Origin: Guyparkeria sp. SCN-R1 | Lineage (GTDB): Bacteria > Pseudomonadota > Gammaproteobacteria > Halothiobacillales > Halothiobacillaceae | Direction: 5' to 3' | Length of the DNA stretch: 64,000 nucleotides | Assembly: GCF_003932495.1 (NCBI RefSeq) | Contig: NZ_QZMT01000004.1 | Span: forward strand, 62,001 to 126,000 | Shown here: positions 15,639 to 30,776 of the stretch, one piece after another | Position numbering within the stretch: the stretch's first letter is position 1 | Layout of the letters: every line of letters begins with the position of its first letter | Program-made: the position numbers and the translations under genes | The notes under the pieces: generated by a model | Seen by the model: only the letters and a program-made list of their open reading frames with translations | What the model was told of the DNA's origin: nothing | Database searches by the model: none

Positions 15639-15946
15639 CGCAGCAACTCGATCGCCTCGTCGATGACGTTCGGGTCGTCCGCGCGCCGGGGGGACTGCTC
15701 GCTCAGGTGGCGGCGGCAGGCACGCGCGCCGGGGCGGCCCTGGAACAGGGTCAGTATCGGCTTGATCAGGGTGGGCAGACGGGTGCCGCGGGCGATCTCG
15801 GCCGCCGCGTAGTCTCGATACGCCAGCAGCGCGGCCAGCTGGTCGGCGGTTTCCCCGTCGTCGAACAGGGCCGCATCGATGTCGGCCAGCAGGCCAACGT
15901 TCTGATAGGCCGCTCGGCCGACCATCACGCCATCGACCTCGGCGAG
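15348..15946. repeat. Left ~599-bp direct repeat of the hugZ-like/dusA junction
   Basis: Aligns with 30178-30776 at a constant offset of 14,830 bp without a visible gap. It covers the 3' half of the HugZ-like gene and the 3' third of dusA. The copies differ at scattered positions (by eye several percent). Homology stops abruptly at GACCTCGGCGAG, after which island sequence starts here and the rest of dusA continues in the right copy. Confidence 0.93.
15635..15946 (-). pseudogene. dusA: Truncated dusA duplicate (C-terminal ~103 codons)
   Basis: Reads in frame as the C terminus of tRNA-dihydrouridine synthase A, from GVMVGRAAYQNVGLLADIDAALF to ELLR and a stop. It is closely similar to the intact gene at the other island edge. 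It lacks the FMN-binding barrel and all catalytic parts, so it is a by-product of the repeat and not a functional gene. Confidence 0.92.
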
Positions 15947-15958: not shown

Positions 15959-15973
15959 GTTTCAGTGCGGAAC
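15959..15973. promoter_or_regulatory. Upstream activator site 1 of RND operon
   Basis: GTTTCAGTGCGGAAC, an imperfect inverted repeat of form GTTYC-N5-GRAAC. It lies 97 bp before the sigma-54 -24 element and 43 bp before the second site. The same form recurs before the other two island sigma-54 promoters. Confidence 0.7.
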
Positions 15974-16001
15974 GAGGCGAGGTTCGCCAGTCCGGGATCC
16001 C

Positions 16002-16016
16002 GTTTCACCCTGAAAC
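16002..16016. promoter_or_regulatory. Upstream activator site 2 of RND operon
   Basis: GTTTCACCCTGAAAC with flanking CCC/GGG makes a nearly perfect 21-bp palindrome. It is 54 bp before the -24 element, a normal position for an NtrC-class activator. The activator encoded in the island is the obvious candidate to bind it. Confidence 0.75.
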
Positions 16017-16069: not shown

Positions 16070-16085
16070 TGGCACGCAGGTTGCA
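16070..16085 (+). promoter_or_regulatory. Sigma-54 promoter of the RND operon
   Basis: TGGCACGCAGGTTGCA matches the -24/-12 consensus TGGCACR-N4-TTGCW at every fixed base. It sits ~30 bp upstream of the first adaptor start, leaving a short leader with an AGAGGAGG ribosome site. Confidence 0.85.
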
Positions 16086-16114: not shown

Positions 16115-16963
16115 ATGAACAAGCGCGTGGCTCTGATCTTGACAGTGAGCTTGGCGTGGCACGGGTCCGCGCACGCCCACTCCGATACCAGTGGTTTTGC
16201 GGCCGATCACCATCATCATGAGGAGACCGGACCGGCTGCCATGGAGCCTCGGCAACGGCGGTTCCCGGCGACGGTCCGCTTCGACCCGCAGCACATCGAG
16301 AACGTGGTGCTCAAGGTCAACGCGCGGGTCGCCGGACTCGAAAATATCTTCGTCGGCCGGAAGGTGAGCGAGGGCGAGAGGCTGGCCGCGTTCGAGAGCG
16401 CCGAGCTCGAAACCTTACAGCGCACCTATCTCGAAACCTTTCGCAACATACAGCTCATCGCCCAGATCAGCCTGACCTCCGAGGAGAAGCTGATCGAAGG
16501 GCGGATGAACCTGGAGTGGCGCGGCCTTTCCGAGGACGGCGTCCAGCTCATCGAGGATCTGCGCAAACCGCTCACGAGCGTGCCCATCGAGTCGCCGGTG
16601 GACGGCTACATTCTCGACATCCGGGTGGTCGACGGCCAAATCGTCAACGCCGGCGCGGCATCCGGTCTTTTCAGCACTGCCGGTACTACCGTTTTCCGCG
16701 TCGCAAGCAGCGCTTCCATCATCGTAGAGGCCGAAATTCCTGCGGAGCAGAGCCGCGAGATGCAGCCCGGGAGTCCGGCGACGCTCTGGGTGACGAATGG
16801 CGGTGGCCGTGAACCGCTTCGGGCCATGGTCGATCAGGTCTCCGGCATCGTGAACCCGGCCAATCAACGCCGTCTGGTGCGCCTCACGCCGATACCGGGG
16901 CCGGGGATAGCCCTGCTGCGCGACGGGGCGCGGCTGCAGGTCTCCATCGGAGGGCAGTCATGA
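16115..16963 (+). CDS. RND periplasmic adaptor 1 (short CusB/HlyD-like)
   Basis: 282 residues with a signal peptide (~1-22, cleaved after AHA) and a His-rich start (DHHHHEE). It has a barrel-sandwich lipoyl segment split by a helical hairpin (VNARVAGLENIFVGRKVSEGERLAAFESAELETLQRTYLE... and SPVDGYILDIRVVDGQIVNAG) and a beta-barrel part. It is ~120 residues shorter than CusB, lacking a clear C-terminal membrane-proximal domain. It would link an inner-membrane RND pump to an outer-membrane channel. ATG at 16115 follows AGAGGAGG. Its stop overlaps the next adaptor by ATGA. Having two adaptors in tandem is unusual; a mixed adaptor hexamer is possible. Confidence 0.85.
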   Translation: MNKRVALILTVSLAWHGSAHAHSDTSGFAADHHHHEETGPAAMEPRQRRFPATVRFDPQHIENVVLKVNARVAGLENIFVGRKVSEGERLAAFESAELETLQRTYLETFRNIQLIAQISLTSEEKLIEGRMNLEWRGLSEDGVQLIEDLRKPLTSVPIESPVDGYILDIRVVDGQIVNAGAASGLFSTAGTTVFRVASSASIIVEAEIPAEQSREMQPGSPATLWVTNGGGREPLRAMVDQVSGIVNPANQRRLVRLTPIPGPGIALLRDGARLQVSIGGQS

Positions 16964-18180
16964 GTGTGCTCCAGCAGTTGGACGGCAGGAAACTGCTCTG
17001 CGGACTCTTTGTTCTGGCGCTGACGAACCTGCCGCCGGCGGTGCTCGCTCACGGCGACAGCGGGGCCTTCGCCGAGGGCGAGGAGCATCACCACGATGAA
17101 CCCGAGGCGCCCGTCGAGGAGACGGACGTCGGGCAACTCCCGAGTTCAACGGATGACGGCGGGCAGTGGCCCGTCGTCGAGGTGGCGTCATCGCTCATAG
17201 GCACCGTCCTCGTCGAAAACCGTGCCCCGCAAGCGCGGGTCCCCGCCTATGCCCGCGTGGTGCCGCGGCCGGGCGCCGTGCGCGACATCAACGCCTATCT
17301 GAGCGGGCAGGTCTCCGAGGTGCATGTCCGCCCCGGGATGCGGGTCGAAAAGGGCGATCTCATCGCGTCCATCTACAGTCCCGAGTTCATTCTGACCCAG
17401 CGATCCTATCTCGCTCTGTTGGAGAACGAGGAGTTGAAGGAGACATTGCGCGAGGAGGGGCGGCTCCCTAACTACAAGCGCGATGCACGTTCGAATCTGC
17501 GCTGGTGGGGGATGGCCGAGGATGACATTCTCGCCCTGGAAGCACGCAAGGATGCAGTGGAGCATTTGGACGTGCGCGCCGAAGTCTCGGGCGTGATCTC
17601 GGAGGTGTTCGTGGCGCCCGGCGAGATCGTCCGCGCCGGTGATCGCGCCATGGAGAGCTTCGTCGTGGTCGGCTCGCCGCTCGCCCGAATCGTGGTCGAT
17701 GGGGGCGGGCGTCGCCTTCAAGGATCGGTCTACGCCGATACCCTGGCCACGCTTAATGATGAGACGCGTGTCCGAGTCCGCGCGGACGACGGAGAAATGC
17801 ACGACCTGGCGCTTACGCAGAGCGTTCCGGCGGTGGACTCCACCAACCGCCTGGGGCGCTTTCTCGTCGATCTTGAGAACCCAAACGTGCTGGACGTGGG
17901 GCGCCTGGTCGGGCTCGAATTGCTGACCCGCGGTGAGGAGGGGGGCTGGCTGCCCCGCGACGCTGTCATGGGCCAAGGGACGGGGCCGATCGCCTTCGTC
18001 GAGGTCAGCGAAGGCCGGTACGAACGCAGGACGCTGACTATCAGGGACTACTTGGGCGGCTGGTCGCTGGCGGATGCAGTGTCCGCCGGCGAGCGGGTCG
18101 TGACGCGAGGGAAGACGCTGTTGGAAGGGGCCTATCGTCTCGGGGACGGGGCCGGGTTGGACGACCATCACGATCACTGA
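16960..18180 (+). CDS. RND periplasmic adaptor 2 (CusB-like)
   Basis: A 406-residue membrane-fusion protein. Signal peptide ~1-30; His/acid-rich linker EEHHHDEPE (~46-55); lipoyl and hairpin region with YSPEFILTQRSYLALLE and LDVRAEVSGVISEVFVAPGEIVRAGD; beta-barrel and membrane-proximal domains (RDYLGGWSLADAVSAGERVVTRGKTLLEGAY) of normal CusB/CzcB length. The extreme C terminus is again metal-binding-like (DDHHDH). It pairs with the pump 15 nt downstream. The histidine clusters at both ends suggest metal capture; which metal (copper, zinc or other) is not decided by sequence. Confidence 0.88.
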   Translation: MSVLQQLDGRKLLCGLFVLALTNLPPAVLAHGDSGAFAEGEEHHHDEPEAPVEETDVGQLPSSTDDGGQWPVVEVASSLIGTVLVENRAPQARVPAYARVVPRPGAVRDINAYLSGQVSEVHVRPGMRVEKGDLIASIYSPEFILTQRSYLALLENEELKETLREEGRLPNYKRDARSNLRWWGMAEDDILALEARKDAVEHLDVRAEVSGVISEVFVAPGEIVRAGDRAMESFVVVGSPLARIVVDGGGRRLQGSVYADTLATLNDETRVRVRADDGEMHDLALTQSVPAVDSTNRLGRFLVDLENPNVLDVGRLVGLELLTRGEEGGWLPRDAVMGQGTGPIAFVEVSEGRYERRTLTIRDYLGGWSLADAVSAGERVVTRGKTLLEGAYRLGDGAGLDDHHDH

Positions 18181-18195: not shown

Positions 18196-21100
18196 ATGTT
18201 CGATCGCATCATCGCCTGGGCCTTGCGTTACCGACTGGCCGTGCTCCTGGTTTACATCGTCGTGGGCGGGGCGGCAGTGGTGGCCGCCACGCAAATGGCT
18301 GTAGATGTCTTCCCCGAATTTGCGCCACCGCAGGTCCAGATCCAGACCGAAGCCCCGGGCTATTCCGCTGCCGACGTGGAATTGCTGGTCACCCGGCCTC
18401 TGGAAGTGGCCCTGAGCGGCATGGAAGGCGTCGAACAGCTACGCTCCGATTCTTCCGGGGGACTCTCCCGAATCGTCATCGTGTTTGGCGGCGACACCGA
18501 CGTCTACAGGGCCCGAATGCTCACCCAGGAGCGCATCCAGCTGGTCCAGGATCAACTCCCGCGCGATATCGACGCCCCACAGATGATGCCGGTCACCTCG
18601 GCGGTTAGCTGGCTGCTGAAGTTCGCGCTCGTCGACTGGTCCGCCGAGCCGGATCCACTGGCGCTGCGCAGCCTGGTGGATTGGGAGTTTCGCAACCGTT
18701 TGCTGGCCGAGCCCGGCGTGGCCTCGGTCGTGGCCGTGGGCGGGGGCGTGAAGCAGTACCAGCTGATGGTCGATCCGCTCAAGCTCAACGCCTTCGATAT
18801 CCCGTTCGCCGATGTGGTCGACGCGGCGACCGAGGCGAACCGCGTTGGCGCGGGAGCGTTCGTCTATCCCAACCGGGAACAAGAGTACTTCGTGCGCGTG
18901 GACGGACGTCTCGGCGGACTTCAGGATCTGGGCGCGAGCACTGTCGCGATGCGTGAGGGCAGTCCGATCACCCTCGGCGATCTCGGTGAGGTGCAGTTCG
19001 GTGAAGAGATCAAGCGCGGCGACGGGCAAATGTTCGGCGCCAATGCCGTCGTCGGGACGGTCTCGAAGCAATGGGGGGCGGACACCCTGGAGACCACCGA
19101 GCGAGTGGAAGCGACGCTGGCCCGCCTGGCGGAGAACCTGCCGCCCGATGTGGAGCTGGTGACGGATGTGTTCCGGCAGGCCTCGTTCATCGATCGCTCC
19201 GTGGAGAACCTACGCGAGGCCTTGTTGCACGCCTCGATCATCGTGGCGTTGGTGCTGTTCCTGTTTCTGGTGCGCTGGCGGCCCACAGTCATCAGCCTGG
19301 TGGCGATTCCCGCCTCGCTCCTCATGGGCGTGCTGGTGCTCTGGGCGATGGGGATCGGCATTAACGCCCTAACCCTGGGTGGCCTGGTGTTCGCCATCGG
19401 CGAGGTGGTCGACGATGCGATCATCGACGTGGAGAACATCCTTCGCCGGTTGCGCGAGAGCCGCACCGCAGACGACGGGGAGCCGCTGCTGCGGGTAATT
19501 TACGAGGGGTCCCGCGAGATCCGAAACTCGGTGGTGTTCGCGACGCTGATCATCGTGGTTGCCTTCATGCCGATCTTCTTTTTGTCAGGGATCGAGGGGC
19601 GCATCTTCATGCCGCTGGCAGTGGCCTACTTGGCGGCCATCGGTAGCTCGTTGCTGGTCGCGCTCACGCTCATTCCGGTGCTCTGCTACTACCTCCTGAA
19701 TCGTCGCGGCGCCGCGCACGAACATCGGGTCAGTCCGCTGACCCGACGGCTGGAAGGTGTTTACCGGCGCGGCCTGCATTGGACGGTGCGGCGGCCCGGT
19801 GCAATGCTGGCGGTGGGCTTGATCGCCCTTGTCGGCGTGCTGGTGCTCTTGCTCGGACTGGGCCGCTCCTTCCTGCCCGGCTTCCACGAAGGAAACATCG
19901 TCATCGCCACCACAATGATGCCGGGCACGTCGCTGGACGAGAACCTCCGCATGGGGCGCGAGGTCGAGGCGCGGGTCAGTGCCGTGCCGGGCGTGGTCAG
20001 CGTGGTGCAACGCGCCGGTCGCTCGCGGCTCGATGAAGACGCCCAGCCGGTCAACTTCAGCGAATTCGACGTGACGGTCGATCCGGAGGTGCGTGATGTG
20101 GCCGGGGTGATGCAAGAACTTCGTGAGTCGCTCGCCGACTTGCCCGGAGTTCAGGTGAACGTCTCACAGTTCATCACCCATCGCATGCAGGAATTGCTCT
20201 CCGGCGTGCGGGCGCAGGTCGCGGTCAAGATCTACGGACCGGAGCTGGAGGTCCTCCAAGGCAAGCAGGCGGAGGTGCTGGATGCCGTGCGCAATATGCC
20301 GGGCGTGGTCGACCTCATGGCCGAGCCGATGATTACCGCTCCGGGGCTGGATATTCGGGTGAATCGGGAGGCTGCCTCGGCCTACGGCCTTACACCCGGG
20401 GAGATCGCTCGTCAGGCGGGGCAGGCCTTCAATGGTGTCGCGGTGTCCACCGTACTGGAAGCCGACCGCTCCTACGACCTCGTGGTACGCGTGAATGCGG
20501 AAAGCCGCGACAGCATTGATGCACTGGGCGCCTTTCCGCTTCGCGGGCCGGATGGCGACATCGTTCCCTTGCGCGAGGTCGCCGAGCTGAACCCCGTGCG
20601 CGAGCCCTACGTCATCAAACGTGAGGACGGCGCGCGCCGGGCCGTGGTGCAGTGGAACGTGGAAGGTCGCGATTTGAACAGTGTCGTGAGCGAAGCGCGG
20701 GAACGCCTGGCGGAGGCAGTGGAACTCGACGCCGGCTACTCGCTCGTATTCGGCGGCGACTACGTAGGCCAGCAGCGTGCGACCCGCGACCTGATGCTGT
20801 CGGGCGCGGCGGCCGTGCTGCTGATCTTCGCCCTGATGCTTTATGCCTTCAAGCAGGTGCGTCTTGCACTGCTGGTCATGACCAATCTGCCGTTCGCGCT
20901 TTTGGGTGGCCTCGCCGCTCTGGCGCTCGCCGGCGAGACGCTCAACGTACCCTCGATCATCGGGCTAATCGCGCTGTTCGGGATCGCTACCCGCAACAGC
21001 GTCCTGCTGTTGGCGCGTTATACGCGCCTCAGCGTCGAGCAGCCCGGGGTCGGGCCGCGTGCGCTGGCGATCCGTGGCGCGCGTCAGCGCATGCTGCCCA

Positions 21101-21315
21101 TACTCATGACCGCATTGACGACCGCACTCGCCGTGCTTCCTTTTCTGATTGGTGATCCGGCGGGCAAGGAGCTGGAGCGCCCGCTCGCCATCGTGCTTCT
21201 CGGCGGGATGATCAGTTCCACGGCGCTCAACCTGTTCATACTGCCTGCGGGCTACGCTTGGCTGGTGGCCCGTCGACCCGAGCTGTGTGAGCGTGATGCA
21301 GCTCCGCAAGCATGA
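18196..21315 (+). CDS. Heavy-metal RND efflux pump (CusA/CzcA family)
   Basis: A 1039-residue proton-driven inner-membrane transporter of the HME-RND class, twelve helices with two large periplasmic loops. The TM4 charged motif reads FAIGEVVDDAIIDVENILRRLRE, with the acidic cluster expected for proton relay. FGGDTDVYRARMLTQERI and RMQELLSGVRAQVAVKIYGPELE are typical HME porter-domain blocks. Methionines recur in the porter region (MPGVVDLMAEPMI), compatible with Cu(I)/Ag(I), but CusA-specific positions cannot be assigned without alignment. It follows the two adaptors in one operon. No outer-membrane TolC/CusC partner is encoded nearby, so one must be borrowed from elsewhere. Confidence 0.9.
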   Translation: MFDRIIAWALRYRLAVLLVYIVVGGAAVVAATQMAVDVFPEFAPPQVQIQTEAPGYSAADVELLVTRPLEVALSGMEGVEQLRSDSSGGLSRIVIVFGGDTDVYRARMLTQERIQLVQDQLPRDIDAPQMMPVTSAVSWLLKFALVDWSAEPDPLALRSLVDWEFRNRLLAEPGVASVVAVGGGVKQYQLMVDPLKLNAFDIPFADVVDAATEANRVGAGAFVYPNREQEYFVRVDGRLGGLQDLGASTVAMREGSPITLGDLGEVQFGEEIKRGDGQMFGANAVVGTVSKQWGADTLETTERVEATLARLAENLPPDVELVTDVFRQASFIDRSVENLREALLHASIIVALVLFLFLVRWRPTVISLVAIPASLLMGVLVLWAMGIGINALTLGGLVFAIGEVVDDAIIDVENILRRLRESRTADDGEPLLRVIYEGSREIRNSVVFATLIIVVAFMPIFFLSGIEGRIFMPLAVAYLAAIGSSLLVALTLIPVLCYYLLNRRGAAHEHRVSPLTRRLEGVYRRGLHWTVRRPGAMLAVGLIALVGVLVLLLGLGRSFLPGFHEGNIVIATTMMPGTSLDENLRMGREVEARVSAVPGVVSVVQRAGRSRLDEDAQPVNFSEFDVTVDPEVRDVAGVMQELRESLADLPGVQVNVSQFITHRMQELLSGVRAQVAVKIYGPELEVLQGKQAEVLDAVRNMPGVVDLMAEPMITAPGLDIRVNREAASAYGLTPGEIARQAGQAFNGVAVSTVLEADRSYDLVVRVNAESRDSIDALGAFPLRGPDGDIVPLREVAELNPVREPYVIKREDGARRAVVQWNVEGRDLNSVVSEARERLAEAVELDAGYSLVFGGDYVGQQRATRDLMLSGAAAVLLIFALMLYAFKQVRLALLVMTNLPFALLGGLAALALAGETLNVPSIIGLIALFGIATRNSVLLLARYTRLSVEQPGVGPRALAIRGARQRMLPILMTALTTALAVLPFLIGDPAGKELERPLAIVLLGGMISSTALNLFILPAGYAWLVARRPELCERDAAPQA

Positions 21316-21395
21316 GCGGCAGTGTTAGCGCCAGTGGCGCCCTGGGGTAAGGTAACCTGTGACGCTTGGAGGATAGAGCCGATGCGCCGCCCGGT

Positions 21396-23996
21396 ATGCT
21401 GAACCTTATCGACACCAAAGACGCAAACTGGCTGCGGCCGATTAGGCTGGGACTCAAGCCGGAGTTGTGGTTTCTGCTCTGGGTCGGGATTCTCCTGCTC
21501 GGCCCGGCGCTGTTCGTGAGCTGGTACGGAGACGGGCATAGCCTGCGCTACGTCGACTCCATTGCACACACCAGTCTCGAGGCCTTCTGCGGGCTAACGG
21601 CGCTGCTGATCGCCGGGCTGTTGTTTTCCCTCTCCCACCAGTACCGGCAGCTTTCGCTGGCCGTGTTCGGGTTCGCCTTTGCGGCGATGGGCGGGTTGGA
21701 TATCTGGCATGCGGCGACGTCTCCGCGCGAACAGACCGAGCTGTTCATCAAGCTGCATACGCTCTCGGCGGTGATCGGTGGAGGCTTGATGTTGGCCGGC
21801 GTGGTTGTGCACTTCACCCGGGAGCCATCGGGGCGACGCAATACCATGACGGCGCAGTGGCTTTTCCTCTCGACGGTGGTGGTCGTGGGCGGAGCGCTGT
21901 TCATCGGCACCCTGACCGGAAGCGCAACCGGGGTCGAGGAGAGTTTCCCAATCGGCGCCCTGCGCCTGCACGAACTGGCGGGCGCCTTGTTTGCCGTGAC
22001 CGCGACGGCCTGTCTCGTCTATTACCGTGCGACGCACCATTTGGTGGCGATGCTCGCCTCGGGGCTGATGTTGCTGTTCGCTGAGAGTGTCTACTTATTC
22101 CGCTTTTCGTTCTTGTGGGACATGGCATGGTGGAGCTGGCACCTGGTCAAGGCGGTCTTCTATCTCGGCATCCTGGTCGTCATCGCGGTGGGGCTCGTCA
22201 TGGCGCTGCGTGCCGTGGAACGTTCGAGAAGCGAGCTGACCCGGGCGCACACCGATTTGCGCGACTCCAACGTCGAAAAGGAGGTCATCAACCGCGAACT
22301 CGCCATCCGCAACCGCATGGTGAGCGAAGCCATCAATTGTCTCGACCTGCGCGATGCCACGGAAGTCATTGGGCGGGCTCTGTCCAACTTCATCGATGCG
22401 GACGCTTACGAACTGATTCTGAGCGTCCCGGACGATGAAGTCCCCGAGTTGCAGCGTGGACTCGATCGCCAGCGATTGGCCTGGACGGTACGTGCCGTGA
22501 GCGAAAAACAGCTGCAGCAAACGGTCTCGGACGTGTGTCGCCCAGGGAGCGGCCCGTTCACGCTCAGCCTGCGGGCCAACGACAGGGTGTTCGGCATGCT
22601 CACGGTCCACATGCGCGAAGGTGCGACCTGTGGTGTGCCGTCGAGCCTGTTCTCTGACTTGGCGGCAGAGATCGGTCCGATCATCTACACCGCCATTCTC
22701 GACGAGAATCGCGTCGAGGCGATCGGTTTTCGCACCTCGCTGCTCAAGGTCACTTCCATGCTCGGTTCGACGCTGGAGCTGGACAATGTGCTCGAGCGCG
22801 TGTGCCGTGAGAGCACGCAATTGCTGGGCAGTGATGCCGCCATTGTATTCCTGCGCGGCGGGCAGAACCTGTCCATCGCGAGCCAGTGCATTCTCGCCAG
22901 CGGTCAGGCCGCGGAAGGAGCTGCCGACTTGCACTGGGCCGACAGCGATGGCGGACGGACGTTGCTCAAACAGCTTCTGCGTACGGGGCAGCCGGTGGCG
23001 CTCCTGCACAAGGGTGAAGGGCCGCCGCCACTGCGATTTGCCAGCGCGACCTGCGACTGGGGGGCGGCGGCCGCCTTCCCGCTGCGCCGTGACGATGACT
23101 TGGCGGGCGTGATGGTGCTGCTTCGCAAAGAGCCGGTCGCCTACAGCCGGCCGACCCTGGACAAGGGCATGTTGCTCGCCGAGAGCGTGCGCATCGCTGT
23201 CAACAATAGCCGCGCCTACAAGGACCTGAGAGATGCGAACTGCCAACTGCGCGAGGCCGAGGCACAGAAGCTGCGCGCCGAGCGTCTGGCCGTATTGGGG
23301 CAAATGGCCGCCAGCGTGGCGCACGAGGTGCGAAACCCGCTGGGAGCAATCGAGAACTGCCTCGCCGTGCTGCGAAGCAGTGTGGCGGGGCAAGCCAAGG
23401 GCCGCGATGCCCTGGAGATCGTGGAGGGAGAGGTACAACGGCTGGAGCGCCTGACAGGAAATTTCCTCAGCTTCGGAAAACCCCGTGAACGGGCATCGCA
23501 AGCCGCCTATCCAGTCCGGATTGCGGAACAGGCGATTGCGCGTATACGTCATCATATTGCGCAGGAACAGCTCCCGATCCGGATCGCACTCGATGTGCGC
23601 GGGCAGTCCGGTCCGGTTCTGCTCGACAGCGATGGTTTTCACGAGGTGCTTTCGAATTTGCTGCTAAACGCTACACAGGCTATCGAGGGCGAAGGCCGAG
23701 TGGAGATCTCGGTGCGGGTACGGTCCGAGCGGGCGTACGTCATGGTCAAGGACGATGGGCCTGGTATTCCTGCGGACCGACGCGAGGAGATCTTTGAGCC
23801 CTTCGTCTCGCAGCGTTCCCACGGCGCGGGACTCGGCCTGGCAATCGTCCGCCAGCTGGTGGGGACGTGCTCCGGTCGGCTGCGCATTTTCGGTGGACCG
23901 GGCCGAGGTACCTGCTTCGCGCTCAGCATTCCGCGCACCCGTCCGCGGGAGAGTCCGGCGAACCGAGTCAAGTCGGAGGTGCGGTGGCATGATTAG
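21396..23996 (+). CDS. Membrane sensor histidine kinase with GAF domains
   Basis: About 866 residues. Eight hydrophobic helices (~17-265) form a membrane sensor domain, followed by a coiled coil, two GAF-like domains (~300-430 and ~445-625), HisKA with H643 in ASVAHEVRNPLGAIEN, and HATPase_c with NLLLNATQA, DDGPGIP and GAGLGLAIV. It phosphorylates the response regulator encoded by the overlapping next gene. The start is uncertain: this ATG has no ribosome site, a TTG at 21366 is in frame, and a six-codon open frame with a good GGAGGA site overlaps this ATG. It lies 80 nt after the pump gene with no terminator between, so it may be part of the RND transcript and thereby autoregulated. Confidence 0.88.
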   Translation: MLNLIDTKDANWLRPIRLGLKPELWFLLWVGILLLGPALFVSWYGDGHSLRYVDSIAHTSLEAFCGLTALLIAGLLFSLSHQYRQLSLAVFGFAFAAMGGLDIWHAATSPREQTELFIKLHTLSAVIGGGLMLAGVVVHFTREPSGRRNTMTAQWLFLSTVVVVGGALFIGTLTGSATGVEESFPIGALRLHELAGALFAVTATACLVYYRATHHLVAMLASGLMLLFAESVYLFRFSFLWDMAWWSWHLVKAVFYLGILVVIAVGLVMALRAVERSRSELTRAHTDLRDSNVEKEVINRELAIRNRMVSEAINCLDLRDATEVIGRALSNFIDADAYELILSVPDDEVPELQRGLDRQRLAWTVRAVSEKQLQQTVSDVCRPGSGPFTLSLRANDRVFGMLTVHMREGATCGVPSSLFSDLAAEIGPIIYTAILDENRVEAIGFRTSLLKVTSMLGSTLELDNVLERVCRESTQLLGSDAAIVFLRGGQNLSIASQCILASGQAAEGAADLHWADSDGGRTLLKQLLRTGQPVALLHKGEGPPPLRFASATCDWGAAAAFPLRRDDDLAGVMVLLRKEPVAYSRPTLDKGMLLAESVRIAVNNSRAYKDLRDANCQLREAEAQKLRAERLAVLGQMAASVAHEVRNPLGAIENCLAVLRSSVAGQAKGRDALEIVEGEVQRLERLTGNFLSFGKPRERASQAAYPVRIAEQAIARIRHHIAQEQLPIRIALDVRGQSGPVLLDSDGFHEVLSNLLLNATQAIEGEGRVEISVRVRSERAYVMVKDDGPGIPADRREEIFEPFVSQRSHGAGLGLAIVRQLVGTCSGRLRIFGGPGRGTCFALSIPRTRPRESPANRVKSEVRWHD

Positions 23997-25350
23997 GGTA
24001 TTGATCGTCGACGATCAGCGCAGTCTGCGTCGCAGCCTGGGCCTGCTCCTGGAGAACGCCGGGATGGAAGCCAGCCAGGCTGTGAGTGGGAAAGAGGCCC
24101 TCGCAGTTCTGGAGAGCGGGCACCATGATGTGGTGATCACCGATTTGCGCATGGACGGCATGTCCGGTACGGAATTGTTGCACGAGGTGCGCGCTCGCCA
24201 TCCCGAGATCCCCGTGATCCTGATCACCGCCTACGGCTCGATCGAGTCCGCCGTCGAAGCAATGCGCGGTGGGGCCTTCGATTATCTCAAGAAGCCATTC
24301 AAGGAGCATGAGATTCTGGAGAAGATCCGCGAGGCATGCGCGTTGCGGGACCAGCGTCCAGGTGCCGGCGAGCGGACACAGGATGAGAAGGACGCAGGCA
24401 TGGTAGCCGAGAGCCCCGAGATGAAGGCGCTACTGATCCGTGTCGATCGCCTGGCCGCCACTGATATCAACGTTCTGATCAGCGGTGAGACGGGCACGGG
24501 CAAGAGCCATTTGGCCCGGCTGGTTCATGATCGGAGTTCGCGCCGGGACGGGCCGTTCGTCAGTCTCAACTGTGCAAGCGTGCCGGAGCAACTCATCGAG
24601 AGCGAGCTGTTCGGTCATGTCAAGGGCAGCTTCACCGGAGCGACACAGTCGAGGGCCGGGCTGTTCGAGGAAGCGGACGGCGGCACTATCTTTCTCGACG
24701 AGATCGACACCCTTTCCCCTGAAATGCAGGCGAAACTGCTTTCGGTCCTGCAGGACAAGGAGGTGCGCCGCGTCGGCTGCAACCGCCACACCCGTGTGAA
24801 TGTGCGCGTCATCTCCGCGGCAAACCGGGACCTGCGCCAGTTGATCGAGAATGGCGAGTTCCGTCCTGACGTGTTCTATCGGATCAACGGCGTCCGTTTG
24901 CACCTGCCGCCGCTTCGCGAGCGACCGGATGATCTCCACAGGCTGGTCGACCGCTTCGCCCGCGAATTTTGCGAGAAGCACGGTCGGCCGCGGGTGCGGC
25001 TGGACGATGAGGTGCGGGCGCGTCTGTTCTCCTATCACTATCCAGGCAACGTCCGCGAGCTGGCCAGCCTCATCGAGCAAATGACCGTGTTCGCGGATGA
25101 AAGCGGCCGAGTCGGCATCGATGACCTTCCCGAAGAGTTGGCGGATGCGGACACTGCGTCTGTACCCGGCGCTGCCGCGTTGCTCGCCGATGAGGGCTAC
25201 AATCTCGCCGATTCCGAGCGCATGATCATTGAGGCTGCGCTGCAGCGCTTCGGGAACCTGTCCGAAGCCGCCCGGGAGCTCGGCATCGGCCGCACTACGC
25301 TGTGGCGTAAGATCCGTCATTACGGCCTCAACGACAACCCGGCCAGATAG
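23989..25350 (+). CDS. NtrC-class sigma-54 response regulator
   Basis: 453 residues. A receiver domain with acceptor D52 (VITDLRMDG) and K102, then an AAA+ sigma-54 activator domain with Walker A GETGTGKS (166-173), the sigma-54 contact loop GSFTGA (213-218), Walker B GGTIFLDEID and arginine fingers near EFRPDVFYRINGVRLHLPPLRERPDD. It ends in a Fis-type helix-turn-helix (LSEAARELGIGRTTLWRKIRHYGL). GSFTGA in place of GAFTGA is a tolerated variant. The ATG overlaps the kinase stop by 8 nt and follows GGAGGT. The natural targets are the three island promoters with GTTYC-N5-GRAAC pairs. Confidence 0.93.
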   Translation: MIRVLIVDDQRSLRRSLGLLLENAGMEASQAVSGKEALAVLESGHHDVVITDLRMDGMSGTELLHEVRARHPEIPVILITAYGSIESAVEAMRGGAFDYLKKPFKEHEILEKIREACALRDQRPGAGERTQDEKDAGMVAESPEMKALLIRVDRLAATDINVLISGETGTGKSHLARLVHDRSSRRDGPFVSLNCASVPEQLIESELFGHVKGSFTGATQSRAGLFEEADGGTIFLDEIDTLSPEMQAKLLSVLQDKEVRRVGCNRHTRVNVRVISAANRDLRQLIENGEFRPDVFYRINGVRLHLPPLRERPDDLHRLVDRFAREFCEKHGRPRVRLDDEVRARLFSYHYPGNVRELASLIEQMTVFADESGRVGIDDLPEELADADTASVPGAAALLADEGYNLADSERMIIEAALQRFGNLSEAARELGIGRTTLWRKIRHYGLNDNPAR

Positions 25351-25374: not shown

Positions 25375-25389
25375 GTTTCAACCCGGAAC
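25375..25389. promoter_or_regulatory. Upstream activator site 1 of thioredoxin/TcDH operon
   Basis: GTTTCAACCCGGAAC, same form as the sites before the RND operon; 44 bp from its partner and 130 bp before the -24 element. Confidence 0.7.
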
Positions 25390-25418
25390 GTCTGTTTCGC
25401 CCCCGCCTCGACTTCCTC

Positions 25419-25433
25419 GTTCCACCCCGGAAC
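25419..25433. promoter_or_regulatory. Upstream activator site 2 of thioredoxin/TcDH operon
   Basis: GTTCCACCCCGGAAC, a perfect five-base inverted repeat around a 5-bp spacer, 86 bp before the -24 element. Confidence 0.72.
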
Positions 25434-25518: not shown

Positions 25519-25534
25519 TGGCACAGCTATTGCT
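25519..25534 (+). promoter_or_regulatory. Sigma-54 promoter of thioredoxin/TcDH operon
   Basis: TGGCACAGCTATTGCT matches TGGCACR-N4-TTGCW at all fixed positions. It leaves a ~80-nt leader before the first gene, which has a GGAGGAA ribosome site. Confidence 0.85.
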
Positions 25535-25625: not shown

Positions 25626-26264
25626 ATGACAGAAAACACTGAGAAGCGTGCACGCACGCTCATTGGTGCGGCCAAGAGGCGCTCCGGCGTCTTCGGCGCC
25701 GCCACGTTCGCGGGGCTGCTCGCCTTTTCCCTGTCCCAGCCGGCACTGTCGGCACAGGAGGAGGGGGCCTTCCCCACTGCAGATGAAGTGGGCGGCGATG
25801 TATTCCCCGACGGACTCAAAGCAGGCGACCCGTTCCCCACCGATATCGAACTCTACGATGCCAACGGCAAGCCGGTGGAGCTTGCTGAGCAGCTAGACGG
25901 CAAGCGTTCCGTCCTGGCGCTCTTCATCAGCGCCGTTCCGGCCTCGGTGGGGGAACTTAAGGCGCTCGAGAAGGCGGTGGATACCAATTCCGCGCAGCTT
26001 TTGTTCCTGAACACCGATCAGGTCGGCACCGCTTTGCTAGGCGGTGACAAGATCAAGGAAACGGCTCGCACGCTGCGGGTGATTAAGCACGAGGAGGGCT
26101 TGAAGAGCCCCATGTTCGTTGCGCCCAATAACGTTTTCGCACCGAACGGCCTTTCCAATCGGCTGGGCATCCGCGGTCTGCCGACCGTGGTGGTGGTCAA
26201 GGCGGACGGCACAGTGGAGAACGTGTTCGTCGGCAGCCAGGACTGGAACAAGCGAAAGATCTGA
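25626..26264 (+). CDS. Exported thioredoxin-fold protein lacking CXXC
   Basis: 212 residues. Basic N region and hydrophobic core form an export signal (~1-42, ending LSA). The mature part has a thioredoxin/TlpA-like fold: GDPFPTDIELYDANGKPVELAEQLDGKRSVLALFISAVP, then LGIRGLPTVVVVKADGTVENVF with the cis-proline. Where TlpA-type proteins have CXXC it reads AVPASVGE, and no cysteine exists in the whole protein, so it cannot do thiol-disulfide exchange. It is probably a chaperone or structural partner of the enzyme encoded 34 nt downstream; that role is inferred from operon position only. Confidence 0.75.
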   Translation: MTENTEKRARTLIGAAKRRSGVFGAATFAGLLAFSLSQPALSAQEEGAFPTADEVGGDVFPDGLKAGDPFPTDIELYDANGKPVELAEQLDGKRSVLALFISAVPASVGELKALEKAVDTNSAQLLFLNTDQVGTALLGGDKIKETARTLRVIKHEEGLKSPMFVAPNNVFAPNGLSNRLGIRGLPTVVVVKADGTVENVFVGSQDWNKRKI

Positions 26265-26298: not shown

Positions 26299-27777
26299 AT
26301 GAGCATGAACAGAAGGCAGTTTCTGCGAGGGACATTGGCCACCGGCGCTGCCGGCGTGGCGGGACATATGGGGCTCGGCCTGGGGGCCTCTCCGGCATTC
26401 GGGGCGGTCCACGATGCCCGGGGCGAGGGCACTCACGAGCTGTTTAAAAAGTTCAAGGGCAATGTCGTGCTCCTTCCCGGCAAGTACAGCGGCACGGTGT
26501 CGGCCCTCGACCTGTCGGCGCCCGAGACCCTGGCCTGGTACAACTACGGGCTAGACGGCATGGATATGCCGATCCCTCACCATATCGCCGCCATGCCGTC
26601 GGCGGATCCGTACAAGAGCTTCGATTTCTACCAGACCATGCAGCCCCCGGGTGCGCCCTACGTCAACGAGAACTCTCCGGAGTGGCGTGATCGGGGCGAT
26701 TTCAAGATGTACAAGATGCGCTATGACGGCAGCGGCCAGCAGAACCGCATCAGCGTCGTCTCTGACGTGTCCGAAGCCACCGGCATGGGCCTGGGTGTGC
26801 ACGTTTCCATCGGTGTCGGTCAGAATGCCAACAAGTATGTCGCCTACGCCGACGGCCAGAAGGACATGGTCCTGATCACCGACCTGGGTGACGATCCGAA
26901 GATCGTCAAGGCCTTCAAATGTGACTACGACCCGGTGTCCCGTCAGCTCCACGTCTCGCACATCTTCCCGGACAGCTCCACCGGCAAGTTCGATCTGCTC
27001 GGACGCAAGGGCATGAAGACCTCGCACGAGGCCATGTTGGGCGAAGAACTCATGCCGGCAGATCCCACGGCGGTGTTCGTCGACGCCTGGACCTGGCATC
27101 CGGAGCTGCCGCTGGGGGCGATCCTCATCCGCCGTCTGGGCTGCTGTGTCATCGTGAATACCGAGACTTGGGAGCCGGTGGCGCTGTTGTCCACGGCCAA
27201 GGGCTCTCCCGACACCTTCCCGGAGGTCAAGCAAAAGGGCTCCACCTGGACCTACTCGGTGCCGTCGGTGCTGACGCCCCTGCACGAAGCCGGATTCACG
27301 CCGAGCGGCGAGTACTTCCTGGCGTGCAACAACGTGCTGCAGAACAACATTGCGGTGTTCCGCTCGACGGATCCGGATCCGCTCAAATGGAAGAAAGAGG
27401 CCTTTGTCGAGGGCTTTGGGCGCAAGTATCTGCCCCTGCACATGGGGAACGTGCCCGATTCTCGCTGGGTGTTCTTCACCATCTGGGCCCGCAAGCCCAA
27501 CAACGGTTATATCTGCAAGGTTGATCCGAAGACCTGGAAGGTGGTGGCCCAGTGGGATACCGGCCCGGACCCGCACACCTGCGACTGCACGGTGGACGGT
27601 AAGTACATCACCACGGTGTACAGCGGCCACCAGGCCGGACAGTCGGGGCTGGTGGTGATCAACGCGGATACGGACGAAATCGTCGCGCGTCTGCCGAGTC
27701 CTGCCGGTCACCACGACCACGTGGTGGTTCCCGAGAGCTGGGAGGGCCTCAAGTCCTCGCGCAGCACCTCGGTGTAG
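26299..27777 (+). CDS. tcDH: Probable thiocyanate dehydrogenase (Tat-exported copper beta-propeller)
   Basis: 492 residues. Twin-arginine signal MNRRQFLRG (residues 3-11) and hydrophobic stretch to ~36, then a propeller-type periplasmic domain. Histidines at 94/95 (IPHHIAAMP), 168 (GVHVSIG), 329, 381 (LPLHMGN), 426 (DPHTCDC) and 471/472/474 (GHHDHVVVPESW) are spread over the blades as expected for a multicopper site. Known thiocyanate dehydrogenases of haloalkaliphilic and halophilic sulfur oxidisers oxidise SCN- to cyanate and sulfur at a trinuclear copper centre. The assignment rests on my recall of that family, length, Tat signal and metal context. A divergent SELENBP1/methanethiol oxidase is the main alternative, but its CSS motif is not evident. 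A hairpin follows the stop. Confidence 0.68.
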   Translation: MSMNRRQFLRGTLATGAAGVAGHMGLGLGASPAFGAVHDARGEGTHELFKKFKGNVVLLPGKYSGTVSALDLSAPETLAWYNYGLDGMDMPIPHHIAAMPSADPYKSFDFYQTMQPPGAPYVNENSPEWRDRGDFKMYKMRYDGSGQQNRISVVSDVSEATGMGLGVHVSIGVGQNANKYVAYADGQKDMVLITDLGDDPKIVKAFKCDYDPVSRQLHVSHIFPDSSTGKFDLLGRKGMKTSHEAMLGEELMPADPTAVFVDAWTWHPELPLGAILIRRLGCCVIVNTETWEPVALLSTAKGSPDTFPEVKQKGSTWTYSVPSVLTPLHEAGFTPSGEYFLACNNVLQNNIAVFRSTDPDPLKWKKEAFVEGFGRKYLPLHMGNVPDSRWVFFTIWARKPNNGYICKVDPKTWKVVAQWDTGPDPHTCDCTVDGKYITTVYSGHQAGQSGLVVINADTDEIVARLPSPAGHHDHVVVPESWEGLKSSRSTSV

Positions 27778-27781
27778 TGCT

Positions 27782-27811
27782 AACGGAGGCGGCGTTCTCG
27801 CCGCCTCCGTT
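27782..27811 (+). terminator. Hairpin after TcDH (terminator or mRNA-stabilising)
   Basis: Perfect 12-bp stem AACGGAGGCGGC / GCCGCCTCCGTT with loop GTTCTC, 4 nt after the stop. There is no clean U-run (TCTCGTTC), so it may protect or attenuate rather than fully terminate. An identical stem-loop occurs after the TcDH remnant at 28914. Confidence 0.7.
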
Positions 27812-27833
27812 CTCGTTCAATAGAAGGGCAGAC

Positions 27834-27870
27834 ATGCGCAAACCGGCCAGCCCCTAGCAGGTGGCGATGG
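27834..27870 (+). pseudogene. Broken 5' end of a duplicate of the 28966 gene
   Basis: After the hairpin and a ribosome site comes ATGCGCAAACCGGCCAGC..., reading MRKPASP then TAG. The intact gene at 28966 follows an identical hairpin and starts MRKLISPWQG. Similarity fades after ~37 nt. From there to 28031 I see only a short stretch reading VNVNFNERWGFAIKVPFECRG in one frame, not recognisable as a gene. Confidence 0.7.
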
Positions 27871-28031: not shown

Positions 28032-28568
28032 ATGAACAAGCGTGTATTGGCAATGACGGCTGCGGCCCTGAGTTTGGCGGCCGCACAGGTTTGTGCCGGT
28101 GAGGTAACCGTCACCCTGCATGAAGTCGATGCCGAGGGGGTGGGCGGAGAGGTCGGGCACATCACCCTGCGCGACGGCGATCACGGCCTGCTGATGATGC
28201 CTGACCTCGATGGACTGGCCCCTGGGCCTTACGCAGTGCATGTGCACGAGAACCCGGACTGCGGGCCGCAGCGCAAGCACGGGCACATGGTCGCGGCCGG
28301 AGCCGCGGGAGGCCATTACGACCCTGAGAGCACGGGTCAGCACGCCGGTCCGTACGGAGCCGGGCACTTGGGTGACCTGCCCGTGCTGGTCGTCGAGAGC
28401 AACGGGCAAGCCCGGGTTCCGACGTTGGCGCCGCGGCCCAAGGTGGCGCAGTTTCAGGGGCGCTCCTTGTTGATCCATCACGGAGCGGATCGCTACGCCG
28501 AGCATGCCGCTCATCAGCACGGCAAGGGCGGTGCTCGCATGTACTGCGGCGTAATCGAGGACGACTGA
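28032..28568 (+). CDS. sodC: Periplasmic Cu,Zn superoxide dismutase
   Basis: 178 residues with a signal peptide (~1-22). Metal-site residues are in place: HVHENPDC (H70, H72, C77), GGHYDPESTGQH (H95, H104), YGAGHLGDLP (H112, D115), LLIHHGADRY (H149/150) and the disulfide partner in MYCGVI (C172). The usual PLGGGG segment is replaced by a His-rich stretch AEHAAHQHGKGGAR, an oddity near the active-site rim that could store metal. It dismutates superoxide in the periplasm. It sits between the TcDH gene and the duplicated promoter, fitting oxidant defence around a copper enzyme. Confidence 0.9.
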   Translation: MNKRVLAMTAAALSLAAAQVCAGEVTVTLHEVDAEGVGGEVGHITLRDGDHGLLMMPDLDGLAPGPYAVHVHENPDCGPQRKHGHMVAAGAAGGHYDPESTGQHAGPYGAGHLGDLPVLVVESNGQARVPTLAPRPKVAQFQGRSLLIHHGADRYAEHAAHQHGKGGARMYCGVIEDD

Positions 28569-28582
28569 CCTTGCGCGATCGG

Positions 28583-28733
28583 TCGCGACCGTTTCAGTGC
28601 GGAACGAGGCGAGGCTCGCCAGTTCGGGATCCCGTTTCCCCGTGAAACCGGTCCGCGTTGCGTTCACAGGCGGTCAATCACTTGGAACTGCACTCGCACT
28701 GGCACGCAAGTTGCGAAACCTGTGGTGTGGAAA
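28583..28733 (+). promoter_or_regulatory. Duplicate of the RND-operon control region
   Basis: About 150 bp aligning with 15951-16103 (roughly 85-88% by eye). It keeps both activator sites, GTTTCAGTGCGGAAC at 28591 and GTTTCCCCGTGAAAC at 28634 (43 bp apart), and a sigma-54 element. It is fused at its 3' end to the end of a TcDH copy rather than to an adaptor gene, and could now drive the 28966-29978 genes. Confidence 0.85.
28700..28715 (+). promoter_or_regulatory. Third sigma-54 promoter
   Basis: TGGCACGCAAGTTGCG; -24 perfect, -12 with only the last base off consensus. It lies 52 bp after the nearer activator site, as in the RND promoter. Confidence 0.75.
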
Positions 28734-28736
28734 CAA

Positions 28737-28908
28737 GTGCATCACCACGGTGTATGTCGGTCACCAGGCTGGACAGTCGGGGCTGGTGATCGACAGAGAT
28801 ACGGGCGATATCGTCGCGCGTCTGTCGAGTCCCGGCAGTCACCACCAGCGCGTAGTGTTTCCCGAGAGTTGGGAGGACCTCAAGTCGTCGCTCAGCACTT
28901 CGGTGTAG
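28737..28908 (+). pseudogene. tcDH: 3' remnant of a second TcDH gene
   Basis: About 56 codons matching the C terminus of the TcDH at 26299: ITTVYVGHQAGQSGLV..DRDTGDIVARLSSPGSHHQRVVFPESWEDLKSSLSTSV and a stop. One codon is missing relative to the intact gene, and HHDH is changed to HHQR. There is no start codon, signal peptide or propeller core. It is joined directly to the duplicated promoter. Confidence 0.9.
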
Positions 28909-28965: not shown

Positions 28966-29385
28966 ATGCGCAAACTGATCAGCCCCTGGCAGGGGGCGAT
29001 ACTCGTTCTAGGGATGAGCATTGCAATGGTTTCGCTGACGTGGGCCCATGGCAACGAGCACCAGCCGAAACTCGAGGGCACGCACGGCGGGATGCTACGG
29101 GCCACGGAGCAGTATCACCTCGAACTGCTGGTGGAACAGGAGCGGGTACGCATATGGGTGACCGACCATGCCGACAATCCGCAGCCCACGAGCGGGGCTC
29201 AAGGCCGGGCCATGATCGCGTCGGGCGATCGCAGGCTGTCGGTGACACTCGCGCCGGAAGGGGACAATGAGCTGTCAGGTCGCCACCCTGACCTGCGCGA
29301 TGCTGATGACCTTCGTGTTGCCGTGACGGTGAGCATGCAGGGAGAAGGGCCGGTTCAGGCCCGTTTCACCAAGGTGACACAATGA
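28966..29385 (+). CDS. Small exported protein of metal-resistance type
   Basis: 139 residues. Signal peptide (~1-27, ending TWA|HGNEH). The mature N terminus is His-bearing (HGNEHQPKLEGTHGG), then YHLELLVEQERVRIWVTDHADNPQPTSGAQGRAMIASGDRRLSVTLAPEGDNELSG. This layout (HGG, ELL/V, VTDH..PxxxxGA) resembles small periplasmic proteins often coded beside CusABC/CzcABC pumps; I infer metal binding but no family is certain. The ribosome site is AAGAGGAGGG. It follows the hairpin, and overlaps the next gene by ATGA. A broken duplicate of its start lies after the intact TcDH. Confidence 0.6.
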   Translation: MRKLISPWQGAILVLGMSIAMVSLTWAHGNEHQPKLEGTHGGMLRATEQYHLELLVEQERVRIWVTDHADNPQPTSGAQGRAMIASGDRRLSVTLAPEGDNELSGRHPDLRDADDLRVAVTVSMQGEGPVQARFTKVTQ

Positions 29386-29978
29386 TCAGGCGTGCTGCAA
29401 CGGCAGTCATGATTCTTGGGGCGGCAAGCACGGCCTGTCTCGCGGAGCCGCAAGACCAGCTGACGAACACCAATGCCTGCGTGGAATGCGACCTCTCCGG
29501 TGTCCACTTCGAGGGCGCCAACCTGTTGGGCGCGGACTTGCGAGGCGCGAACCTGGACGATGCCGACCTCAGAAAGGTCACCCTTACCGCATCCGATCTG
29601 CGTGGCGCCAGCCTAGTGGATGCCGATCTTCGCGGTGCGATTCTAGGCGGCGTCAACTTTGCCGAAGCAGACATGCGCCGGGCGCGGTTTGATGGCGCCT
29701 ATCTGACTCGCGCCGATTTCACCCGGGCTGTCATGCATGAGGTGAGCATGATCGACGCGCGCCTCGATAGCGCCGTTCTGGAAGGCGCGGACCTCAGCGG
29801 CGCCAATCTTCAGGGCGTGGACTTGTACGATGCACGGTTGTTCTTCTCGGTGCTGTCTGGGGTCCGCCTGGAAGGTGCCGACCTGAGCTTTGCCGACGTG
29901 GTCGAGGCGGAACTCGAGGAAGTGCGCACCGACGAGACCACCGTCTGCCCGGACTCGGAGCCAGGGCCGTGCTGGTAA
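29382..29978 (+). CDS. Exported pentapeptide-repeat protein
   Basis: 198 residues. Signal peptide (~1-21, LA|EPQ), then NACVECDLSGVHFEGANLLGADLRGANLDDADL and about 24 further A(D/N)LXX repeats up to ~180, forecasting a right-handed quadrilateral beta-helix. Cysteines at CVEC and near the C terminus (VCPDSEPGPCW) could form disulfides or bind metal. The NTNACVECDLSG start is typical of exported pentapeptide proteins in sulfur bacteria and cyanobacteria; function unknown. It is translationally coupled to the preceding gene and is the last intact island gene. Confidence 0.82.
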   Translation: MIRRAATAVMILGAASTACLAEPQDQLTNTNACVECDLSGVHFEGANLLGADLRGANLDDADLRKVTLTASDLRGASLVDADLRGAILGGVNFAEADMRRARFDGAYLTRADFTRAVMHEVSMIDARLDSAVLEGADLSGANLQGVDLYDARLFFSVLSGVRLEGADLSFADVVEAELEEVRTDETTVCPDSEPGPCW

Positions 29979-30177: not shown

Positions 30178-30468
30178 GGTGTAGCGAGTGTGGCCCTGAT
30201 GGCCGACCAGTCGGCCACCCGCAATCCCTTCGCCCGCGAACGCGCCCACTGGGCGGTGCGGGTCGAGGCTGTCGACCGCAAGGACGAGCGCTTTGCGGTC
30301 ATCACCGCCGCCCTGCAAAAGCGCCACGGCAAGACAGTGGAACTGCTGTGCGGGCTGGGCGATTTCTATCTGTTGGGTCTTCACCCCGGGGTGGGCATTT
30401 ACGTGAACGGTTTCGGCAACGCGTTCGAGTTGGATGGGCTTTCCGTCCGAGGTCACCGACGCAATTAG
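30178..30468 (+). pseudogene. 3' fragment of the HugZ-like gene
   Basis: About 96 codons in frame (GVASVALMADQSATRNPFARERAHW to RGHRRN and a stop), highly similar to the C-terminal half of the intact gene at 15123. It lacks the N-terminal half of the split barrel. An in-frame ATG a few bases upstream could express a stub, but there is no ribosome site. Confidence 0.9.
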
Positions 30469-30776
30469 CTGAGCAACTCAATCGCCTCGTCGATCACGCT
30501 CGGATCATCGACGCGTCGCGGTGACTGTTCGCTCAGGTGGCGGCGGTAGGCACGCGCGCCGGGGCGGCCCTGGAACAGGGTCAGTATCGGCTTGATCAGG
30601 GTGGGCAGACGGGTGCCGCGGGCGATCTCGGCTGCCACGTAGTCTCGATACGCCAGCAGCGCAGCCAGCCGGTCGGCGGTTTTCCCGTCGTCGAACAGGG
30701 CCGCATCGATGTCGGCCAGCAGGCCGACGTTCTGATAGGCCGCCCGGCCGACCATCACGCCATCGACCTCGGCGAG
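30178..30776. repeat. Right ~599-bp direct repeat of the hugZ-like/dusA junction
   Basis: Counterpart of 15348-15946. Here the dusA side continues into the complete gene and the HugZ-like side is cut. The 199 bp before it (29979-30177) hold no gene that I can recognise. Confidence 0.93.

Follow-up and report, generated by a model that had tools for sequence, protein, structure and literature searches.

The window analysed here is a stretch of 64,000 nucleotides from the draft genome of Guyparkeria sp. SCN-R1 (2,418,072 bp in 68 scaffolds according to Table 1 of Tsallagov et al. 2019, PMC6504805). On its forward strand, at 26299..27777, it carries an intact open reading frame of 492 codons with a GGAG shortly 5' of the ATG. 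Upstream lie genes for two HlyD-type adaptors, an RND permease, a histidine kinase, a sigma-54 response regulator and a thioredoxin-fold protein. Downstream lie sodC, the gene of a small protein that we call X139, and the gene of a pentapeptide-repeat protein.

The sections of PMC6504805 available to us already name the gene at 26299..27777 thiocyanate dehydrogenase (TcDH), list 13 active-site residues as present, describe six genes upstream of it and call the pump Cus. The locus is identical to ours: the six upstream genes, their order and the active-site residues are all the same. The idea of a new kind of enzyme is rejected because the locus has already been published from SCN-R1, so the identification itself has been known since 2019 and from this very strain. 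TcDH is an already reported enzyme, and its branch is known but biochemically unproven. What we add is mainly detail on the likely on-switches, the partner proteins and the entry of the gene block into the genome; it is testable and it is modest. Thiocyanate is a toxic pollutant in the wastewater of coke ovens and gold mines, and the added details, if they hold, offer ready ways to test why no in-vitro activity of the neutrophilic TcDH has been observed. In the literature checked, as far as its accessible text goes, we found neither the paired palindromes, nor the copper-protein-like fold of X139, nor a pump without the methionine triad, nor the cysteine-free partner, nor the 14.8-kb insertion. 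The main text of PMC6504805 does not contain the words promoter, enhancer, pentapeptide, horizontal, insertion or dusA.

The enzyme and its active site

The protein begins with MSMNRRQFLRG and matches the Pfam TAT_signal family (PF10518) at 24.1 bits against a cut-off of 22.7, which bears out the Tat signal claimed in a first-pass annotation of this DNA. Two adjacent arginines fall within the first 14 residues in 33/33 alignment rows of the branch described below. When phmmer is run against the PDB sequences, the best matches are all nine distinct TcDH sequences (E 5.7e-88 to 2.4e-78). Residues 38-491 match the wild-type enzymes of Pelomicrobium methylotrophicum (E 5.7e-88) and Thioalkalivibrio paradoxus (7.3e-80), and their variants too. 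The sequence similarity is far above chance.

The 13 active-site residues are those listed in the Fig. 4 legend of PMC6504805, one of the parts of that paper used here, and they were mapped through a 52-row alignment with tpTcDH numbering. All 13 are kept in the window protein (K62, H94, H95, Q115, H168, E244, D262, H329, H381, H426, H472, D473 and R488) and in 33/33 branch rows. The first-pass annotation had pointed to nine histidines that could build a copper centre. Its positions are correct and seven of the nine belong to the active site: H94 (His135 in tpTcDH), H95 (His136), H168 (His206), H329 (His381), H381 (His437), H426 (His482) and H472 (His528), each invariant in 33/33 branch rows. 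Neither of the remaining two is a known ligand. H471 occurs in just 15/33 branch rows; H474 is invariant in the branch and is N, C or S in other TcDH-like rows.

A model of the protein built from 35 sequences has a mean pLDDT of 84 and a pTM of 0.85, with weak spots at residues 119-128 (pLDDT below 50) and in the block 241-250, which holds the active-site residue E244 and averages 61. Foldseek fills ranks 1-20 with TcDH chains (TM 0.84-0.86 by query length) and reaches NirN at rank 21 with a TM of 0.45. With VIA, a second aligner, the twelve TcDH entries score Z 54.7-56.1, and the entry that follows them, a lactonase, scores 33.5. Superposed on 5F75 and 8Q9X, the TcDHs of T. paradoxus and P. 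methylotrophicum, the model is a seven-bladed propeller that gives Z 55.4 and 56.1 with rmsd 1.8 and 1.9 over 443 residues. The superposition on a known TcDH that had been proposed as a check therefore fits at the level of the fold (Z 56 against 33.5 for the next kind of protein).

Could the product instead be a methanethiol oxidase of the SBP56 family? That enzyme, MtoX, is likewise a periplasmic copper protein with a beta-propeller that acts on a small sulfur compound, and its genes are laid out as mtoX-SCO1/senC-mauG, according to the portions of PMC5739008 consulted. The family match is absent. PF05694 finds nothing in the SCN-R1 genome, where the same search is positive in a Sulfolobus control, nothing in the TcDH protein at E 0.001 and nothing in any of 35 relatives at E 0.1. 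The gene neighbours differ as well: the island genes that were scanned include neither a SCO1/SenC nor a MauG family member, so the contrast with the published mtoX layout drawn in the first-pass annotation was right. There is also no SBP56 entry among the 50 matches listed by the structure search with VIA, an absence that is no evidence on its own. We reject this reading on the missing PF05694 match in the genome, the protein and the 35 relatives, and regard it as exceedingly improbable. The earlier call of a thiocyanate dehydrogenase rather than a methanethiol oxidase is supported by phmmer, the alignment, Foldseek and VIA. The fear that generic annotation would label the protein as selenium-binding did not come true in Pfam or NCBIfam. 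The choice offered at the time, TcDH or a new branch, is no real alternative: the protein is homologous to TcDH and at the same time belongs to a deep, separate branch, which the 2019 paper had already described from the SCN-R1 genome itself (PMC6504805, in the sections available).

Neighbouring genes and their likely switches

All the genes discussed here lie on the forward strand. The first HlyD-type adaptor (16115..16963, taken from the ATG of its signal peptide; 'cusB1' of the 2019 paper) and the second (16960..18180; 'cusB2') match Pfam HlyD_D23 at 82 and 74 bits, and they are followed by the RND permease (18196..21315; 'cusA' of the same paper). The permease passes the cut-off of the CusA/CzcA heavy-metal RND family (TIGR00914, 769 bits against 701.45). 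As a copper pump by the methionine triad it fails: at the three-methionine site of CusA, which we take to be M573/M623/M672, it has A571/F621/E666. The same A/F/E is found in 11/11 nearly full-length TcDH-linked orthologues (57-66% identity; matches shorter than 700 residues or with stops were left out). The M/M/M triad is kept in the pumps of three more distant neighbours (loci L029, L030 and L037 of our set). The pump of the block may still move another metal or ligand.

Next come a membrane histidine kinase with a GAF domain (21366..23996; Pfam HATPase_c, HisKA and GAF; start codon uncertain) and a sigma-54 response regulator (23989..25350), whose motif is GSFTGA, not GAFTGA, and whose ATG overlaps the kinase stop. 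The kinase is proposed as a CusC-like transporter in the text of PMC6504805 at hand. A normal two-component pair would seem the simpler reading, because the kinase, phospho-acceptor and GAF domains are there and the stop overlaps the ATG of the regulator. The two were also tried as a PrsK-type sensor and a PrsR-type regulator, and both assignments are rejected (TIGR02916 at 87.6 against a cut-off of 300, in the kinase domain only; TIGR02915 at 319 against 503).

The exported thioredoxin-fold protein directly before TcDH (25626..26264) is cysteine-free and matches Pfam Redoxin at E 2e-5 and 24.9 bits, below the cut-off of 26.6. PMC6504805, in its accessible part, proposes it as an acceptor of zero-valent sulfur, and its authors themselves note the missing motif. 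Cysteine-borne sulfur on this protein appears unlikely, because no cysteine is found beyond window residue 43 in 31/31 aligned homologues linked to TcDH (the partial homologues of L013, L024 and L027 were left out). In L006, L012 and L032 one cysteine may survive where the mature protein begins. The protein could still bind glutathione persulfide in a cysteine-independent way, as the same authors suggest for glutathione. We would expect it to assist TcDH in some way other than as a cysteine-based sulfur carrier. If they hold, our results argue against two printed labels, the Cus copper pump and the sulfur-accepting thioredoxin-like protein.

Behind TcDH lie the Cu/Zn superoxide dismutase gene sodC (28032..28568; Pfam Sod_Cu, 92 bits), the X139 gene (28966..29385) and the gene of an exported pentapeptide-repeat protein (29382..29978; Pfam Pentapeptide, E 1.5e-39). 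X139 is an exported protein of 139 residues with no Pfam match, and its model (pLDDT 86) and the structure searches point to a beta-sandwich. H28, the GG of HGG, H51, E53, W64 and D67 are invariant across 23 homologues. VIA finds CrdA as the best match at Z 11.4 (94 residues, 2.4 A, 7% identity) and copper proteins of the P19/FetP/FtrA type at Z 8.8-10.5, and 21 of its top 22 rows are CrdA or P19/FetP/FtrA/Tp34/HftA entries. Foldseek is weak here: its best hit is an unrelated protease at E 2.7e-3, CrdA stands at 4.0e-3, and none reaches E 0.001 or better. On the strength of the model, X139 is a candidate copper carrier for TcDH, and would handle copper as its partner. The pentapeptide-repeat protein starts with C-x-x-C-[DN]-L in the window and, by eye, in 22/22 relatives, which is possibly just a common cap motif.

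How constant is this neighbourhood? Neighbours were counted in the 34 branch loci whose flanks are long enough (28 'core', 6 'deep'), with denominators that vary by gene. The thioredoxin-fold gene stands directly upstream of TcDH in 22/23 core and 6/6 deep loci, and the kinase and regulator stand upstream in 10/17 core loci. X139 lies downstream in 23/25 core and 0/5 deep loci, the pentapeptide gene in 21/24 core and 0/3 deep loci, and a sodC (32-36% identity) is near TcDH in 9/17 loci. L035 is scored as a miss for the thioredoxin-fold, X139 and pentapeptide genes, wholly or in part because the TcDH match there is a partial one; X139 and the thioredoxin-fold gene are nonetheless present there, the latter slightly further off.

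The sigma-54 -24/-12 pattern TGGCAY-N5-TTGCW has two perfect matches in the window against 0.04 expected, and both stand in front of operons of the block. One is TGGCACGCAGGTTGCA (16070..16085), 30 nt before the ATG of the first adaptor gene, hlyD1, at 16115; the other is TGGCACAGCTATTGCT (25519..25534), 107 nt before the thioredoxin-fold gene. A third such site, at 28700, has one mismatch and precedes X139. It lies in a copy of the hlyD1 promoter block (28567..28733). Taken together, sites with one mismatch exceed the chance level modestly (8 against 3.1 expected). Over the whole genome the perfect pattern shows no enrichment, with 5 occurrences and 6 of the reversed control. Each of the three sites is preceded by a pair of GTTYC-N5-GRAAC palindromes whose starts lie 43-44 bp apart. 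In front of hlyD1 these are GTTTCAGTGCGGAAC (15959) and GTTTCACCCTGAAAC (16002), candidate activator sites spanning 15959..16016; before the thioredoxin-fold gene they are GTTTCAACCCGGAAC (25375) and GTTCCACCCCGGAAC (25419), spanning 25375..25433; in the copied block they start at 28591 and 28634. The three pairs are not three independent events because 15935-16103 and 28567-28733 are copies that are 84.7% identical. The genome holds 17 of these palindromes against 2 for the reversed control, six of them forming the three pairs and the other 11 single, and the matches in the window are not independent because the palindrome was defined after inspecting it.

In the relatives the controls were first-order Markov resamples. 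The palindrome stands before the thioredoxin-fold gene in 16/33 loci including the window (control 2.4%), and the 400 nt before that gene hold a sigma-54-like site with no more than one mismatch in 17/30 loci (control 1.1%). Four Thiobacillus-type loci that have the regulator lack the palindrome (L026, L028, L034 and L036). With sites and palindromes at about half of the loci and these four regulator-bearing exceptions, a universal promoter circuit is unsupported. For SCN-R1 itself we propose that the kinase and sigma-54 regulator would act through the paired palindromes, the regulator binding them and switching on three sigma-54-like promoters, those of the pump operon, the thioredoxin-fold/TcDH operon and the X139/pentapeptide operon. 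A sigma-54 regulator near TcDH, and its thiocyanate induction in Thioalkalivibrio, are described in the portions of PMC5744179 available; the word promoter is absent from the text of that paper.

Entry of the block into the genome

Two direct repeats bound the block, 15360..15946 on the left (the 3' end of dusA and adjoining DNA) and 30190..30776 on the right (also with the dusA 3' end), and they are 90.7% identical over 589 columns. The 14.8-kb insertion is missing from 9/9 congeners examined, where the repeat stretch is single and uninterrupted. In all nine both flanks meet within 3.0-3.9 kb, which leaves no room for the block; a tenth congener, 64% complete, was left out. No integrase-type family was found among the genes scanned in the block. 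We infer that a molecule with a diverged copy of the junction recombined into the genome and so brought in the block.

The block also carries signs of its own history. The 3' end of TcDH and the start of a broken X139 copy (27834, with a stop after seven codons) occupy 27601..27868 and come back at 28735-29000 (269 columns, 84.8% identical); sodC lies between the two. Directly behind the copy of the hlyD1 promoter block lies the relic of a second TcDH gene (28732..28908, forward strand), the last 58 residues only, with 74% identity to residues 434-492. PMC6504805 reports a TcDH fragment too, but the passage in question places it upstream of TcDH whereas in the sequence it is downstream. Since the TcDH 3' end and X139 start are repeated with sodC between them, the block is probably a fusion of two versions that had diverged. 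Further along, at 32320-32590, the window holds a dispersed repeat of about 270 bp that has dozens of copies, at roughly 76-93% identity, in SCN-R1 and its congeners.

The branch and the case for thiocyanate oxidation

A single scan of GTDB contigs turned up 46 loci. Five further family members came from sampled whole genomes, in 4/369 genomes of the class (E 1e-10) and 1/398 of the phylum, the window's own excluded. In a tree of 52 rows, 33 rows including the window form one side of a branch with support 100/100. On the other side stand both TcDHs of known structure, the four rows from Nitrospirota and a clade of 13 rows, mainly methanotrophs. The tree is midpoint-rooted and its two main sides meet by long branches, so we do not use relations outside the 33-row branch. 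L035 and L038, with TcDHs shorter than 300 residues, were left out of the residue table and the tree. Counts within the branch are not independent, because many Thiobacillus rows are near-copies and L004-L008 may overlap other genomes in the set. Branch members are 57-85% identical to the window TcDH, and 33-39% identical to 5F75 and 8Q9X. The named hosts include Thiohalobacter thiocyanaticus, Paracoccus thiocyanatus, Thiobacillus thioparus and several reactor MAGs.

The window protein shares with 5F75 and 8Q9X the propeller fold, the 13/13 active-site residues and Tat export, but it is only 38-39% identical to them and has N123 where tpTcDH has Tyr164. The branch has N there in 32/33 rows and D in 1/33; the tyrosine is kept in tp, pm, 4/4 Nitrospirota rows and 13/13 rows of the methanotroph clade. 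According to the parts of PMC9456337 consulted, the best electron path modelled for tpTcDH runs through Tyr164, the proposed electron exit. Beside this site the branch has residues of its own, P120, Y121, E124 and W129 in 33/33 rows along with the N/D at 123, and its H474 adjoins the copper-ligand pair H472-D473. These six positions replace other residues in 32-33/33 branch rows. Y121, two residues from the Tyr164 site, could take the place of the tyrosine in a loop modelled at pLDDT below 50.

At the level of the cluster, a sigma-54 regulator is also present in Thioalkalivibrio and Pelomicrobium, while the other neighbours in Thioalkalivibrio differ from those of SCN-R1 (copCD, an ABC transporter and fccAB). 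Thiohalobacter (T. thiocyanaticus HRh1 and strain FOKN1) is much closer. Its TcDH is 82% identical, its upstream order is the same HlyD-HlyD-RND-kinase-regulator-thioredoxin-fold, and it has the X139 and pentapeptide genes downstream. It differs in having no sodC within the 10-kb flanks (E 1e-5), and no TcDH relic was noted there.

Two other groups deserve a remark. In L008 and L043-L054 (Methylocystis, Methylocapsa and relatives) the active-site His482 of tpTcDH is naturally Gln in 13/13 rows, the same substitution that was introduced on purpose in structures 6sji, 8yu5 and 8yu6; we found no paper in the open-licence literature that links Methylocystis with thiocyanate dehydrogenase. L029, the Nitrospira defluvii MAG NOB1, has a 73%-identical TcDH with 13/13 residues on a contig of a nitrite oxidiser, perhaps by a binning error, about 9 kb from its RND pump with the CusA methionine triad.

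We believe that the product of 26299..27777 is very probably a TcDH in function as well, a copper enzyme that breaks down thiocyanate. Its copper content, reaction and electron acceptor would be those of the Thioalkalivibrio enzyme. The gene content favours a thiocyanate role. This is the only full TcDH found in the SCN-R1 genome and the gene is absent from 10/10 congeners; a cyanase gene is present (E 3.5e-37); and NHase_alpha, the family of nitrile-hydratase-type thiocyanate hydrolases, was not found in the genome by a search that was positive in 3/10 other genomes. Oshiki et al. 2019 (PMC6934394, in the sections available) report that TcDH is abundant in the proteome of thiocyanate-grown Thiohalobacter FOKN1 and that cyanate accumulates.

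The same sections of PMC6934394 contain an objection: neither the purified FOKN1 enzyme nor cell-free extracts oxidised thiocyanate. In the accessible text of PMC6504805, gels of SCN-R1 show no clear difference between thiocyanate- and thiosulfate-grown cells, and in the open-licence literature, as far as its text was accessible, we found no report of an active purified branch member. The missing Tyr164, the poorly modelled stretches 119-128 and 241-250, the weak enrichment of the sigma-54 pattern and the GSFTGA motif of the regulator also count against our overall reading. One could argue that branch members, though TcDH-like propellers, do not oxidise thiocyanate alone and function only in a complex or on another small sulfur compound. 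The branch-wide changes near the channel mouth (P120, Y121, N/D123, E124, W129 and H474) and the thioredoxin-fold gene directly upstream in nearly every core and deep locus speak for this as well. Against it, all 13 active-site residues are kept, the hosts include organisms named for thiocyanate degradation or recovered from it, and the inactivity of the extracts may reflect nothing but assay conditions. We think it improbable. A different doubt comes from the history of the block, which could be a recent foreign arrival with an unused TcDH: it is missing from every one of the nine congeners examined, and its rearranged second TcDH copy is broken. But the main gene is intact, with a perfect sigma-54 site in front, and it is the sole TcDH found in an isolate that is reported to grow on thiocyanate. 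The available part of the pangenome paper (PMC9032823) states this and calls thiocyanate oxidation so far exclusive to SCN-R1 within Guyparkeria. An idle TcDH is therefore very hard to believe in.

A broader version of the thiocyanate reading can be put forward, tentatively. The neutrophilic TcDH branch may be a distinct system with a rebuilt electron exit, required partners, one dedicated regulator and transfer as one block, a possibility that we hold to be somewhat doubtful. Its details call for the same reserve: Y121, N123, E124, W129 and H474 might together replace Tyr164, and activity might need both the cysteine-free thioredoxin-fold partner and the P19/CrdA-like carrier X139. Nor would we put more than limited trust in a single switch, in which one kinase/sigma-54 regulator would turn everything on together through the paired GTTYC-N5-GRAAC sites. 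If the distinct system is real, it would explain why the Thiohalobacter enzyme was dead when purified alone. One branch member has a second candidate for thiocyanate in its genome: Thiobacillus thioparus DSM 505 (L026) carries, besides its branch TcDH, a gene of the nitrile-hydratase-alpha family (E 1.2e-69), a family that includes thiocyanate hydrolase, and this gene is a candidate scnC only.
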